In this document: piece by piece, positions 21,186 to 48,768 of the stretch
Numbering within the stretch: position 1 is the first letter of the stretch
Layout: each line of letters begins with the position of its first letter
Notes under the pieces: model-generated
What the model was told of the DNA's origin: nothing
Seen by the model: the letters and a program-made list of their open reading frames with translations, nothing else
The model's database searches: none
Program-made: the position numbers and the translations under genes
Assembly (NCBI RefSeq): GCF_002494345.1
Contig: NZ_NXNI01000001.1
Span: 124,001 to 188,000 of the forward strand
Direction of reading: 5' to 3'
DNA length: 64,000 nt
DNA from: Natrinema ejinorense
Lineage (GTDB): Archaea > Halobacteriota > Halobacteria > Halobacteriales > Natrialbaceae

Positions 21186-21600
21186 TATCGCCGAACGTGA
21201 CTCGTCGCGGCCGAACCCCAATAGCTCGACGCACCCGTCCGGTTCCTGCGGCATCGACGTGTGGTTTGGACGACGTCGACGACGACTCGATGCCGTGACC
21301 GTGGCAGGGTTCGATCAGGGATCGAGGTCCCCCTTCGATCTCGAGCGGCGAATCGAGGTTCCGTAGGTCGGCGGGCTATAGTAGCCACTGAAAGTCAATG
21401 CACATCTGATCGAAAGACGGCGTTGCGATCAGTGTCTAAATAGTTTCAGTGGCTACGATAATAGCCGAGTGCCGGATGCGGACCGCAGAACCCGTACGCC
21501 GCGGTCTCGTCGTAGTGGTGCTGTTTCCATCGGAGTGAAGCTCGTTCCGTCCGAGTTCGCTCTCCGTCGGTCGTCGCATCCAGATCGTATCTGACCGGCG
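21186..21600 (-). pseudogene. Alpha-amylase remnant interrupted by an 84-bp element
   Basis: Translated pieces match the intact amylase downstream, in order but in shifting frames. SDTIWMRRPTESELGRNEL (near 21594) corresponds to IDAIWVQQPAESSLDWEDL. HHYDETAAYGFCGPHPALGY corresponds to GYYDGTSPYGFRDPHPPLGY. RNLDSPLEIE and SLIEPCHGHGIE correspond to RNLDSSFGTE and SLIETCHDHGIE. DGCVELLGFGRDE corresponds to DGYVELPQFDRNE. The element at 21377 to 21460 sits exactly between GY and the RNLDS part. Frameshifts and the insertion rule out a functional product. Only the part equivalent to intact residues 80 to 185 survives. Confidence 0.85.
21377..21460 (-). mobile_element. Palindromic MITE-like element, copy A
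   Basis: An 84-bp element with 17-bp terminal inverted repeats (TATAGTAGCCACTGAAA left; the right one differs at one position). It is inverted relative to copies B to E. It interrupts the amylase remnant, and the junctions carry short TA-rich duplications. It has no coding capacity. Confidence 0.8.
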
Positions 21601-23129: not shown

Positions 23130-23143
23130 CGTACTCCCCGGCC

Positions 23144-23227
23144 TATCGTAGCTTCTGTAACGATTGACACACTGATCGCACCGCTGTCGTGCGATCAGGT
23201 GTGCAATGACTTCCGGGGGCTACGATA
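23144..23227 (+). mobile_element. Palindromic MITE-like element, copy B
   Basis: An 84-bp copy beginning TATCGTAGC and ending GCTACGATA, 14 bases after the proS stop. The interior holds a second palindrome, CTGATCGCA against TGCGATCAG, so almost the whole element can fold into one long hairpin. It may double as the proS transcript end. Confidence 0.8.
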
Positions 23228-23365
23228 CGAAACCGCATCGAGGAGCCGGTTACGGGAGTTCTGTCCCGATTTCGTTGGGCCCGACTCGAGCCGAATCGAC
23301 TGGCAAACGACGTGAGTGTCTCCCACGCGAACCTAATTGTTTAACCCGAGGTACCTTACGGGCGG

Positions 23366-28198: not shown

Positions 28199-28806
28199 CT
28201 CGCACGGACCGCCCCGAATCGATCGGTCATCCGAGTATCTCGTTCTCAGACGGTCGATCACTCCCCGACTCCTGTGAGTGGCCTCGACGTCGGCTATAGC
28301 CGTTTGTCTCGTTGTAAATCGGTTCGGGTGCTACTATACGAATCGAGACGTCAGACGTTGGAACACAGTATCCGCCACTCGAGTCTCCTCAGTCGCCTCT
28401 CCGCGTCGCGAGCGATGGCGCGTTCGATCGAGAAACAGCGGAACGATACTATAGTAGCCACGGAAACGAACGGCACACTGATCCCAACGCTGTCGTGCGA
28501 TCAGGTGTGCCAGTGGCCACTATCGGAGTCAGGAGCTCACCTGCCGACTGGCGGGTATGCCGGCTGCCCACACATGAACAGGCTGCATCGGAACCGCGCG
28601 TCGGGTTCCGCTGTCTACCGGGTGTCTTCCACCTCGCACGATTACTCCCGGTAGGTGTGATCGTCGGTGGATCTCTGTGGTGCGTTCGTTGCGTGATCAC
28701 CTCCGCAGTCACTCACTTTCATCTCGTCTAACTTAATCTTTAGCCCTGTCTAATCCTTTCTGTCGGCAGCTCGATCAGCCACTCACGGAACCAGTGACGG
28801 GATCGG
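28199..28806. other. Intergenic region containing element copy C
   Basis: No gene recognised in about 600 bases. It contains the palindromic element C at 28450 to 28524. A block near 28297 to 28345, bounded by GGCTATAG and GCTACTATA, might be a heavily decayed relative. AT-rich sequence at about 28730 to 28750 has no obvious target gene on the plus strand. Confidence 0.5.
28450..28524 (+). mobile_element. Palindromic MITE-like element, copy C (shortened)
   Basis: It begins TATAGTAGCCAC and ends GTGGCCACTATC, with the conserved interior CACACTGATC and TGCGATCAGGTGTG. At 75 bp it is about nine bases shorter than A and B, missing part of the right arm, and is the most diverged at its ends. Confidence 0.7.
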
Positions 28807-45001: not shown

Positions 45002-45183
45002 GTGGGTCCCCTCGCACGCCGACCGCTGGCGCGTCTCGGTAGCCTACAGGTGACGCGGAAATGAGGGTTTTCCCGAGCGAACGAGACTCTCGCCGAAAGT
45101 GGAACGATGCTACCGGCCGGGCGACGTCCGATCGGCCGACCGAGCGGAACCGTTTATATGTCTCGTCGGACGTAGCATGGGGT

Positions 45184-46119
45184 ATGACTCGAGGGCTTGG
45201 CTGGTTCGACGCGTTCCGCGAGGTCGTTCCCGAGTGGGCCGTCGTCGTGCTCGGGCTGGTGACCCAGCTGGGCGACGTGTGGTTTCTGGGCGTCCTCGTC
45301 GGGACGCTCTACTGGATCGAGACCGACGACCGGGACGATATCGCCGCCGTCGCCGGACTCTTGCTGGCGGGCCTCTCGCTCATCACGGCGCTGAAACACG
45401 TCTTCGCGCTCCCGCGACCGGAGCGCGTCCTCGTAGAGGTCGAGGCGCTGCCGGCGGCCGTCCACCCGCTGTACGAAGCGACTGCGACGGCGACCGGCTA
45501 CGGGTTCCCGAGCGGGCACGCCCTGATGTCGACGATCGTCTACCTGAGCCTGGCCGAGTACAGCGACGTCAGCACGCGTCGGCGGCGATTCCTCGGTGCC
45601 GCCGGGCTCGTGACTGCCGTCTCCCTCTCTCGAGTCGGTCTCGGCGTCCACTACCTCGTCGACGTCGTCGCGGGCGTCGCCGTCGGACTCGTCTTTCTCC
45701 TCCTCGCGTGGGGGCTCCTGAACCGCTATCCGACCCACCGCGGGACGATCGGGTTCGGTCTCGCCGTCGGCATCGCCGCCGCTGCCCTCGTGACGAGCAG
45801 CATGGACCCCGATGCGGTTCTCCTCTTTGGCGCGTCGCTTGGCGCGTTTGCGGGCTGGCAGCTCGCGCTCCTCGCTCGAGGGCTGGACGCGGGACAGGGG
45901 CCGATCCGAGCTGATCGCCGGCTCACCGTCAGGGCTGTCGCCGCAGGCTTCGTGATCGTCTCCCTCGTCGGTGCCATCGCCTACTATTGGCCCGTCTCGC
46001 TTCTCGCCGGGAGCGGCGCACTCGGCGTGGCCGTCGCGGCGCTCGTTCCGGTCCCCGAACTGTACCGCACCGAGCGCGTCCGGCGTCTCCGGCAGCGATC
46101 GCTGTCCGGATCGCAGTAG
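45184..46119 (+). CDS. PAP2 superfamily membrane phosphatase
   Basis: A 311-residue protein from the ATG at 45184 (MTRGLGWFDAFREVVPEW) with about nine membrane helices. The three PAP2 motifs are KHVFALPRP, PSGHA and SRVGLGVHYLVDV, the last with the catalytic histidine. It dephosphorylates lipid or isoprenoid phosphates facing the outside. A further five-helix region follows the motifs. The TAG stop codon lies inside the left end of palindromic element D. Confidence 0.9.
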   Translation: MTRGLGWFDAFREVVPEWAVVVLGLVTQLGDVWFLGVLVGTLYWIETDDRDDIAAVAGLLLAGLSLITALKHVFALPRPERVLVEVEALPAAVHPLYEATATATGYGFPSGHALMSTIVYLSLAEYSDVSTRRRRFLGAAGLVTAVSLSRVGLGVHYLVDVVAGVAVGLVFLLLAWGLLNRYPTHRGTIGFGLAVGIAAAALVTSSMDPDAVLLFGASLGAFAGWQLALLARGLDAGQGPIRADRRLTVRAVAAGFVIVSLVGAIAYYWPVSLLAGSGALGVAVAALVPVPELYRTERVRRLRQRSLSGSQ

Positions 46120-46197
46120 GCCCTGAAACGAGTTTCACACTACTCGCCACCCTGTCATGCGATTCGGTGTGCAGTGACGTTCAGTGGCTACTCTATC
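46113..46197 (+). mobile_element. Palindromic MITE-like element, copy D
   Basis: It runs from GCAGTAGGCCCTGAAA to TTCAGTGGCTACTCTAT, about 84 bp, more diverged than A and B. It fills the whole intergenic space between the PAP2 gene and the convergent histidine kinase gene. Both stop codons (TAG at 46117 to 46119, and TAG on the minus strand at 46188 to 46190) are part of its terminal repeats. Confidence 0.75.
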
Positions 46198-47234
46198 GGC
46201 GGCTGGTCCGCCTGTGGCACCGAGATCCGAACGACGTTCCCACGAGGTGTCTTCGCTTCGAACGAGAGTTCGCCGCCGAGTGAATCGACGCACCACTTCA
46301 TTACCCACAAGCCGACGCCGGAGCCGTGGTACGTACTTTTCATCACCGTCTCATCGTCTAGCACCTCGATTTCCATCTCCGGAATCGGTGGTCCATTATC
46401 GACGATTCGGACCACACCAAAGCCCTTCTCGGGCTCTTCGGTTACTGTCAACGTCACCGTTGGCGTCTTGCTATCGTTATGGGTGACTGCGTTCTCGATG
46501 GCGTGTTCGATCGCGTACCGCAATCCTTTGTCGGCGGTTACCCAGATATCCGACGGACCGGTAACTGATATGTCGACCGCTGTGTTTTCCGACTGCGTTT
46601 CGCTAGCACATGTTTCCACGACCGTCCGAAGGTTCGTGGGTCCTCGCTCCGTTGTCCCAGGTTCGACGATTTTTTCGATCTGATCTAACGAGTCACTGAG
46701 CGTGCCGACCTCCGATGCGATATTTAAAATGGTCTCGACTTCCTCCTGCAGTTGATCGTTTTCGATGGCTGTTTTGATCCTGTCAGCGTATCCGATGAGG
46801 AGATTCATATCGTTCCGGAGATTGTGACGGATAACGCGATTTAAGAGCTGAATCAGTTGTTCGCGGGTTTTGTACTCGGTAATATCGTTGATCTCGGCGA
46901 TGACACATTTCGTTTCATCAATCGTCGTTCGTGTGAGATGGATGCTGATCCACCGATACTCGCCGTTTTTCCGTTTGACTTTCCATTCAAACGTTTGTGG
47001 ATCGCCACGAGCGGCAGTCCGAATGCGGTCGACGGCCTCCGTTCGCGTGAATTGCGTCGAGGGTGCAGTATACTCCTCAACTGCCATCGTCCGAAGTTCT
47101 CCCTTGGTGTATCCGTACAACTGCTCTACCCGATCGTTTACATCGAGAATTTGTCCTGTTTCCGGGTCATGAACTGTAATTCCGACCTTCATCCCATCGA
47201 ATATTCCGGGTACACTCACGTTTTGCCCAACCAT
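46188..47234 (-). CDS. PAS domain histidine kinase
   Basis: A 348-residue protein from the ATG at 47234 (MVGQNVSVPGIFDGMKVG); a GTG at 47252 is possible. An N-terminal PAS domain (VHDPETGQILDVNDRVEQLYGY, WKVKRKNGEYRWISIHL) is followed by a kinase core. The phosphoacceptor His137 lies in RVIRHNLRND, the N box in IEHAIENAVTH, the D box in VRIVDNGPPIP and the G box in GSGVGLWVMKW. There is no membrane segment, so it is a cytoplasmic sensor. GC is lower than in the surrounding genes, and it is bracketed by elements D and E. Confidence 0.9.
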   Translation of the reverse strand: MVGQNVSVPGIFDGMKVGITVHDPETGQILDVNDRVEQLYGYTKGELRTMAVEEYTAPSTQFTRTEAVDRIRTAARGDPQTFEWKVKRKNGEYRWISIHLTRTTIDETKCVIAEINDITEYKTREQLIQLLNRVIRHNLRNDMNLLIGYADRIKTAIENDQLQEEVETILNIASEVGTLSDSLDQIEKIVEPGTTERGPTNLRTVVETCASETQSENTAVDISVTGPSDIWVTADKGLRYAIEHAIENAVTHNDSKTPTVTLTVTEEPEKGFGVVRIVDNGPPIPEMEIEVLDDETVMKSTYHGSGVGLWVMKWCVDSLGGELSFEAKTPRGNVVRISVPQADQPPIE

Positions 47235-47618
47235 ACTGTTCTCTACTCTCACCAGAACTCTCCGGTAGCAATAACCTTGCCAAATATATTCGGTTTTCGT
47301 TCACTTACGAGTCACAATTCGACGTACTGTTCGTCTATACGCGACCGTGAATGCAACGTCGTTCTGGGCACGGTTTCTGACGGAGTGCTACGACGTCGAA
47401 AACTGCTCGAGGTCTCTACAGTAGCACCTGAAACGATTGACACACTCGTCGCAACGCTGTCGTGCGATTCGTGTACAGTGACGTTCAGTAGCTAATCGTT
47501 ATCGAACCGGTAGCTGACAGGACTTCCTCGCGTCGGCCCCTCGAGACGAATCGGACCGGCCGTCTCGTCTTTCTCGGCCGACGACTGGTGGGAACCCCGG
47601 ATCCGTGCTCCTGGCGAA
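47235..47618. other. Intergenic region holding element copy E
   Basis: No gene seen. The part next to the kinase is AT-richer (CAAATATATTCGG near 47282) and should hold its promoter. Element E occupies 47416 to 47497. Confidence 0.5.
47416..47497 (+). mobile_element. Palindromic MITE-like element, copy E
   Basis: It begins CTACAGTAGCACCTGAAA and ends TTCAGTAGCTAATC, in the same orientation as B, C and D. The interior reads CGATTGACACACTCGTCGCA and TCGTGCGATTCGTGTAC, close to B. It sits upstream of the kinase gene, which therefore lies between two direct copies (D and E). Confidence 0.75.
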
Positions 47619-48395
47619 TTAGCGGTCGCTTTCGTCGGAGTCGTCGTCCCCCGTCGCGTCTTCCTCGTCCGTTTCGGCCTCGGACTCGTCGGGCGGCTCG
47701 ACCTGCTTCTCCGAGGCGTCCTCCGCGGGGCTCGCCTCGGGCTCCGTGTCCGCGGTCTGGGTCGGCTGGGCCTGTGTGGGGTCGGGCCCCGTCGCCTCGC
47801 TGGTCTCGTCGGCCATCGCCGTGTCGGAGACGTCGACCGCAATGTCGTCGGTCTCGGTCTCGCGCCGGGGCTCCGTTTCCTCCTCGCCGAGATCCGGCCG
47901 GGATCGGGACTCGTCCGCGTCCGGGTCGTCGGTGAACTCGACTCGAGAGCCCGACTCCGCCGCGTCGTCGACTCCTGGGTCCGCCGAAATCTCGCCGTCG
48001 GGTTCGATCTCGGATTCCCGACCGGAATCGACGCGGGTGGCGGCGGCAGCGGCCCCGTCCGACGTTTCTTTCCCCTCGGTTCCGCTCTCGATGTCCGGGA
48101 CGCCGTCGTCGGTCGGGGACTCGCCGCTCGAGCGACGGTTGTGAAGCCCGAATCCGATCAGTCCGCTGCCGGCGATCCCCAGCGGAAGCGCACGTGGTCG
48201 GTTCCTGGCCAGTGCCCGAACGGCGGCTGCCAACAGGAGTCCGCCACCGAGCAGCGGCAGCGTCCCGCTCGCGAGCGCGTCGGACGCTGCTGATGCGACT
48301 CGCCCGGCCGGTTCGGTCAACTCCGCGGCCTCCTCGAGGTCCGCTGGTTCGTCCATCGAGACGTCCGTCGACGCGTCGTGGTCATGGTGTGTCAT
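47619..48395 (-). CDS. Membrane protein with long acidic tail, haloarchaeal hypothetical
   Basis: A 258-residue protein from the ATG at 48395 (MTHHDHDASTDVSMDE). After an acidic head come two close hydrophobic segments, SGTLPLLGGGLLLAAAVRAL and RALPLGIAGSGLIGFGL, then about 170 residues of Asp/Glu/Ser/Thr-rich disordered sequence ending DSDESDR. The pattern suggests a small membrane anchor with a disordered cytoplasmic or external tail. The function is not recognised. Confidence 0.65.
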   Translation of the reverse strand: MTHHDHDASTDVSMDEPADLEEAAELTEPAGRVASAASDALASGTLPLLGGGLLLAAAVRALARNRPRALPLGIAGSGLIGFGLHNRRSSGESPTDDGVPDIESGTEGKETSDGAAAAATRVDSGRESEIEPDGEISADPGVDDAAESGSRVEFTDDPDADESRSRPDLGEEETEPRRETETDDIAVDVSDTAMADETSEATGPDPTQAQPTQTADTEPEASPAEDASEKQVEPPDESEAETDEEDATGDDDSDESDR

Positions 48396-48768
48396 CGAAA
48401 ACCCTCCGAGCGACGGTGCTGGTGGCCCGCTGCCGGAACGGGACACCGGCTGTCCGGTCTCGCCGCCGGTCGGGCCACTCGCGTCCGCTCGTGGAGCGTA
48501 CGCCGGCCGGCCGGATGAACGTTGGACTGGCAGATGAATACCCGTTCCCGGACCGGGCTATTGTCCCGAGCGACCGGCGCACCCACGGACGGGTCGTGGG
48601 GTCGCCGGCACTGACTGGTCGGTCCGTCTGACGACCGCCGTTCTCGGATCGATATCGATCAGTGTCGAAGCGGACGGTTTTTCGGGCGAAAACCGGCGCG
48701 CGCTTCGATTAGGGCCTGCATACTCCGGGCCGGTGACCTTCCCTGTCTGCCGTTGAAGTAGTCTATCC
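48396..48768. other. Non-coding stretch upstream of the sulfatase gene
   Basis: No gene with a recognisable domain. It separates the divergent acidic membrane protein and sulfatase genes and should hold both promoters; no clear TATA box stands out. Confidence 0.4.

Follow-up and report, generated by a model that had tools for sequence, protein, structure and literature searches.

Two convergent genes of Natrinema ejinorense have their stop codons inside a single repeat copy, element D, which is very probably an old member of a non-autonomous IS630/Tc1-mariner-type MITE family that lands in stop codons. From comparison with empty sites and homologues, this MITE appears to carry host stops mostly by landing in them and not by truncating genes. 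One of the two stops at D, that of the PAP2 gene, is probably native, and the other probably belongs to the element.

Element D and the stops of its flanking genes

In the window (the whole 64,000-nucleotide stretch analysed here), a PAP2-superfamily phosphatase gene (45061..46119, plus strand; PF01569, E 3e-18) ends TCG CAG TAG, with its stop at 46117-46119, and faces a PAS/HATPase sensor kinase gene (46188..47252, minus strand; PF02518 over residues 242-347 of 354) whose histidine-kinase reading frame ends GAG TAG, with its stop at 46188-46190. Both stops and the 68 nt that separate them fall within D, a degraded copy on the plus strand at 46111..46196 (G000:C1:170111-170196; covariance model, 72.2 bits, E 1.2e-15) with an 80-bp core at about 46114-46193 in the family alignment. 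We assign D to the MITE family by this homology. The reading-frame ends and the family match thus bear out the preliminary description in placing both stops within one palindromic element that fills the gap. Neither Rfam, searched across the window, nor a phage collection gave a match.

The symmetry of D's ends is real, because matches to the terminal motif far exceed chance in the window: GTAGCCACTGAA at up to 2 mismatches occurs 12 times against 1.7 expected, a count reached in 0 of 100 shuffles. It is exact at the kinase end (46180-46191), while the PAP2 end (46116-46127) reads GTAGGCCCTGAA, with 2 mismatches. Each stop coincides with the second TAG of its end. On the kinase side the order is TA, GAG (from TAG) and TAG; the PAP2 side lacks both the TA and the repeat's first TAG, and a TA duplication is visible on the kinase side alone (46194-46195). 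As RNA, D folds no more stably than shuffled controls do (z -0.9 and -1.1), and its DNA fold likewise does not exceed shuffles.

The proposal that the element supplied the PAP2 stop does not survive comparison with homologues, a check set beforehand as a possible refutation. In 18 species without the element, the PAP2 protein stops at the corresponding position, with SQ or SR as its last residues, and 8 of these have the identical SQ followed by TAG; the G015 protein, for example, ends RRRSPSRSQ then TAG, against RQRSLSGSQ then TAG here. Because element-free homologues end at the same place, we infer that this TAG is the gene's own conserved stop, with the element's end fused to it. An insertion into the native PAP2 stop, followed by loss of about 5 bases, would give the present arrangement. 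The DNA to the right of D gives no simple pre-insertion site.

For the kinase, the idea that the element provides the stop holds in part. The gene probably reads into D and uses the element's second TAG, which would have been in use since the first mutated to GAG, but no domain has been cut short: the whole ATPase domain is present and 7 residues follow it, and the tails of kinase homologues vary. Among the species checked, only this one has the kinase between PAP2 and its usual neighbour. In 17 other Natrinema species an acidic-protein gene (window 47619-48446) lies directly beyond PAP2 and convergent to it with no kinase between; in 16 of these species the two are no more than about 200 nt apart. 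A second degraded MITE copy lies upstream of the kinase (47416..47498, plus strand; 54.1 bits), and strain G041 has only a remnant of it; the segment 46111-47498 thus has the look of a kinase newly arrived between two direct MITE copies. We considered a composite transposon made of the kinase and its flanking MITEs and set it aside, as the roughly 4 element pairs within 2 kb genome-wide are what chance would give, estimated from positions.

The MITE family and its movement

Sixteen copies from the organism's own genome align as an 86-column near-palindrome whose pairs covary, and the intact unit is 80 bp, TAGTAGC[AC]ACTGAAA...TTTCAGT[GT]GCTACTA. The covariance model matches this genome at about 100 separate loci, and because 8 copies tie at the top score, movement appears to have been recent. 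The window holds further copies at 21376..21461 (minus strand; 92.1 bits) and 23143..23228 (plus strand; 91 bits) and a shortened one at 28449..28525 (plus strand; 52 bits). In a first survey all 24 further Natrinema genomes matched, with 2 to at least 109 copies. The family had seemed restricted to Natrinema, as 1 of 16 sampled outside genomes matched, until copies on plasmids from about a dozen further genera of haloarchaea, including Haloarcula, Natrialba, Natronorubrum and Halomicrobium, refuted this. The inner stem, columns 31-38 with 48-55, covaries in the family alignment (pair 32/54 is GC, CG or AU), and the interior palindrome has been kept although IS630 transposition should need the ends alone. 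In genome G007, two full MITEs stand head to tail in the same orientation at three places (C5:50920-51091, C48:137695-137865 and C49:27970-28144), as though a second copy had entered the TA next to the first.

Empty sites could be read from G041, a strain of the same species that lacks several copies. At four loci (L035, L044, L045 and L050) the G041 sequence runs from one flank to the other across just one TA, and the filled site has TA on both sides of the element. A fifth empty site (L282) also has a single TA and reads GTAC, and a sixth (L040) reads CCAG, where a TA/CTAG reading needs a later T-to-C change. Of 70 well-preserved copies, drawn from four genomes, 56 had CTAG as their target. 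IS630/Tc1-mariner elements behave in this way, entering a TA and duplicating it. CTAG is named as the preferred site of IS630 in the title of Tenzen and Ohtsubo (1991), as cited in PMC2170065.

IS630-family elements of Natrinema (PF13358) end in CTA then TAGTAGnCGTTAGAA, with one end (L378) reading CTA then TAGTAGCCATTAGAAG; these resemble the MITE ends and are not identical to them. Among 30 IS630-type loci we found no autonomous element with exactly the MITE ends. The organism's own genome has no intact IS630-family transposase; its sole IS630-type trace, despite recent MITE activity, is an 80-codon fragment (L320; G000:C1:1646356-1646514), and intact relatives are present in other species. 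The copies would have been mobilised in trans by a lost or foreign IS630-family transposase. The family is short, has no transposase gene and shows paired terminal inverted repeats, TA duplication and a preference for CTAG.

Why gene ends fall inside copies

We called gene ends with a codon-based gene finder around 90 elements and found 22 gene 3' ends inside them. Fourteen of the 22 use the TGA of ACTGAA (columns 14-16), typically giving proteins that end YSSN or YSSH, and D alone among the 90 has the TAG at columns 7-9 as a gene stop. The preliminary description had both D genes ending at the same terminal TAG; this is correct for D, where both stops are second TAGs of element ends, but it is not a rule for the family. 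Only one other element (L290; G000:C1:775057-775142) contains both stops of a convergent pair, in each case at the TGA position and not at TAG. Forty elements from three other Natrinema genomes yielded six more such ends, with YSSH or YSSR tails.

These ends can be accounted for by where the element inserts. A TAG stop codon offers a TA target, so that the element lands in native stops and converts xxC TAG to xxC TAT AGT AGC AAC TGA; the predicted protein gains Tyr-Ser-Ser-Asn or -His, and the terminal repeat restores a stop four codons later with its TGA. Where an insertion joins a gene in a different frame, the tandem TAG TAG ends it. The homologous proteins terminate precisely one codon ahead of the insertion at L035, L060 (2 homologues), L244 (4), L257 (1) and L270 (10); at L035 the empty site in G041 reads CTC TAG, and the alignments of three other species end at the same residue. 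At two further loci (L276 and L290) the homologue stops within two residues of the prediction. The contrasting case is a young MITE at L044 (G000:C1:3015419-3015504), where the frame is open through CTAC in G041 and the copy in the organism's own genome cuts it at TGA, a recent, strain-specific disruption of a putative OsmC-like gene (assigned by eye).

Special targeting of stop codons need not be invoked. We considered it, as 14 of 45 insertions lie in a stop codon or up to 100 nt beyond it, where TA density predicts 16% (p 0.009), and this excess is explained by counts of CTAG itself. CTAG is rare (195 in 464 kb against 1,553 expected), and stop codons make up 17 of the 122 CTAGs that lie outside the interior of coding sequences; because this 14% share of tolerated CTAG is matched by 14 of 90 elements, no special attraction is needed. 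Gene ends inside elements thus reflect target choice and selection against insertion into coding sequence, with no designed terminator. Similarly, the suggestion that the element ends reading frames wherever it lands is right in that stops lie near both ends, in keeping with the 22 gene ends and the cut frame at L044, but closing all six frames is not special. Random 86-mers of the same composition do so in 29% of cases and random palindromes in 54%, and we dropped six-frame stops as a design feature.

The preliminary description had also raised a bidirectional terminator, and we considered this role or that of an mRNA 3'-end hairpin kept between convergent genes. The young consensus has a strong predicted fold (-47.4 kcal/mol, z -9.2), its inner stem covaries and many gene 3' ends lie in or beside copies, all of which would suit such a role. 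There is, however, no enrichment between convergent genes, which flank 19 of 85 elements and make up 73 of 400 gene pairs in the background (Fisher p 0.37). The fold of D is lost, no T-run follows, and copy number ranges from 2 to over 100 across Natrinema species. We consider the role quite unlikely, and at D the hairpin has decayed; young copies might still act as terminators. Highly improbable is the related reading that D truncated both flanking genes and created both C termini. Both stops do lie inside D and the L044 case shows that such cutting can happen, but PAP2 ends at the same residue without the element, and the kinase keeps its full ATPase domain in a group of homologues with variable tails.

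A different ancestry altogether, as a GTAG-tagged REP mobilised by RAYT, an IS200/IS605-related PATE or a haloarchaeal SMR, is hardly credible. The ends do contain GTAG, which tags REPs (PMC3733652), the unit is palindromic, and haloarchaea carry both PATEs and SMRs (PMC3119063). REPs, however, measure 20-40 bp and have their tag at a single end (PMC3733652), which does not fit an 80-bp unit with symmetrical ends and TA duplication. The near-perfect terminal inverted repeats speak against PATEs, which have none, and the TA duplication at empty sites contradicts SMRs, which make no target duplication (PMC3119063). An IS630/Tc1-mariner-type MITE remains our preferred reading.

Relation to known repeats and significance

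The closest parallels come from bacteria. RUP of pneumococcus, a MITE of IS630-Spn1, is similar in having about 100 copies of about 100 bp, IS630-like ends, a TA target and stops in all six frames (PMC2229807); it differs in sequence and is said to favour IS elements, whereas ours lies near ordinary gene 3' ends. Pneumococcal BOX, which encodes the stop of 36 genes, with truncation lacking strong evidence (PMC3049150), is not IS630-like and is modular and larger. Correia/NEMIS of Neisseria is also a MITE with stem-loop RNA, and its longer form closes every frame and lies almost exclusively between genes (PMC2229807); it too is bacterial and of other sequence, and RNase III processing of mRNA is reported for Correia. 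Copies of Coxiella QMITE1 and QMITE2 reach a few bases into several functional genes at their 3' ends (PMC5896051), but they form another sequence family, and the C-terminal extension there is 33 residues against 4 here. Nearer in host, the Haloquadratum walsbyi MITEs are transposase-free haloarchaeal repeats, and for at least one of them the genome has no functional transposase that matches (PMC3119063); the likeness is one of description, and IS630 is unmentioned in that paper.

An IS630-type MITE with six-frame stops (RUP), repeats that encode stops (BOX) and overlaps of MITEs with gene 3' ends (PMC5896051) are thus already known. The literature we searched, which did not include ISfinder or most subscription papers, held no description of this haloarchaeal family, and it may already be named elsewhere. 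Most interesting to us is the replacement of stop codons as seen against empty sites and homologues, which accounts for the stop-carrying pattern noted in other repeats.

We think it unlikely that the tail shared by unrelated Natrinema proteins (Tyr-Ser-Ser-Asn, -His or -Arg), together with the 3' hairpin, has regulatory consequences and is not neutral; if it did, the shared tail or 3' end would affect protein turnover or the mRNA 3' end in several Natrinema species. For annotators, shared YSSN and YSSH tails are to be read as transposon-derived. The copies also provide a natural haloarchaeal set of 3'-end insertions in which transcript ends and protein tails can be studied.
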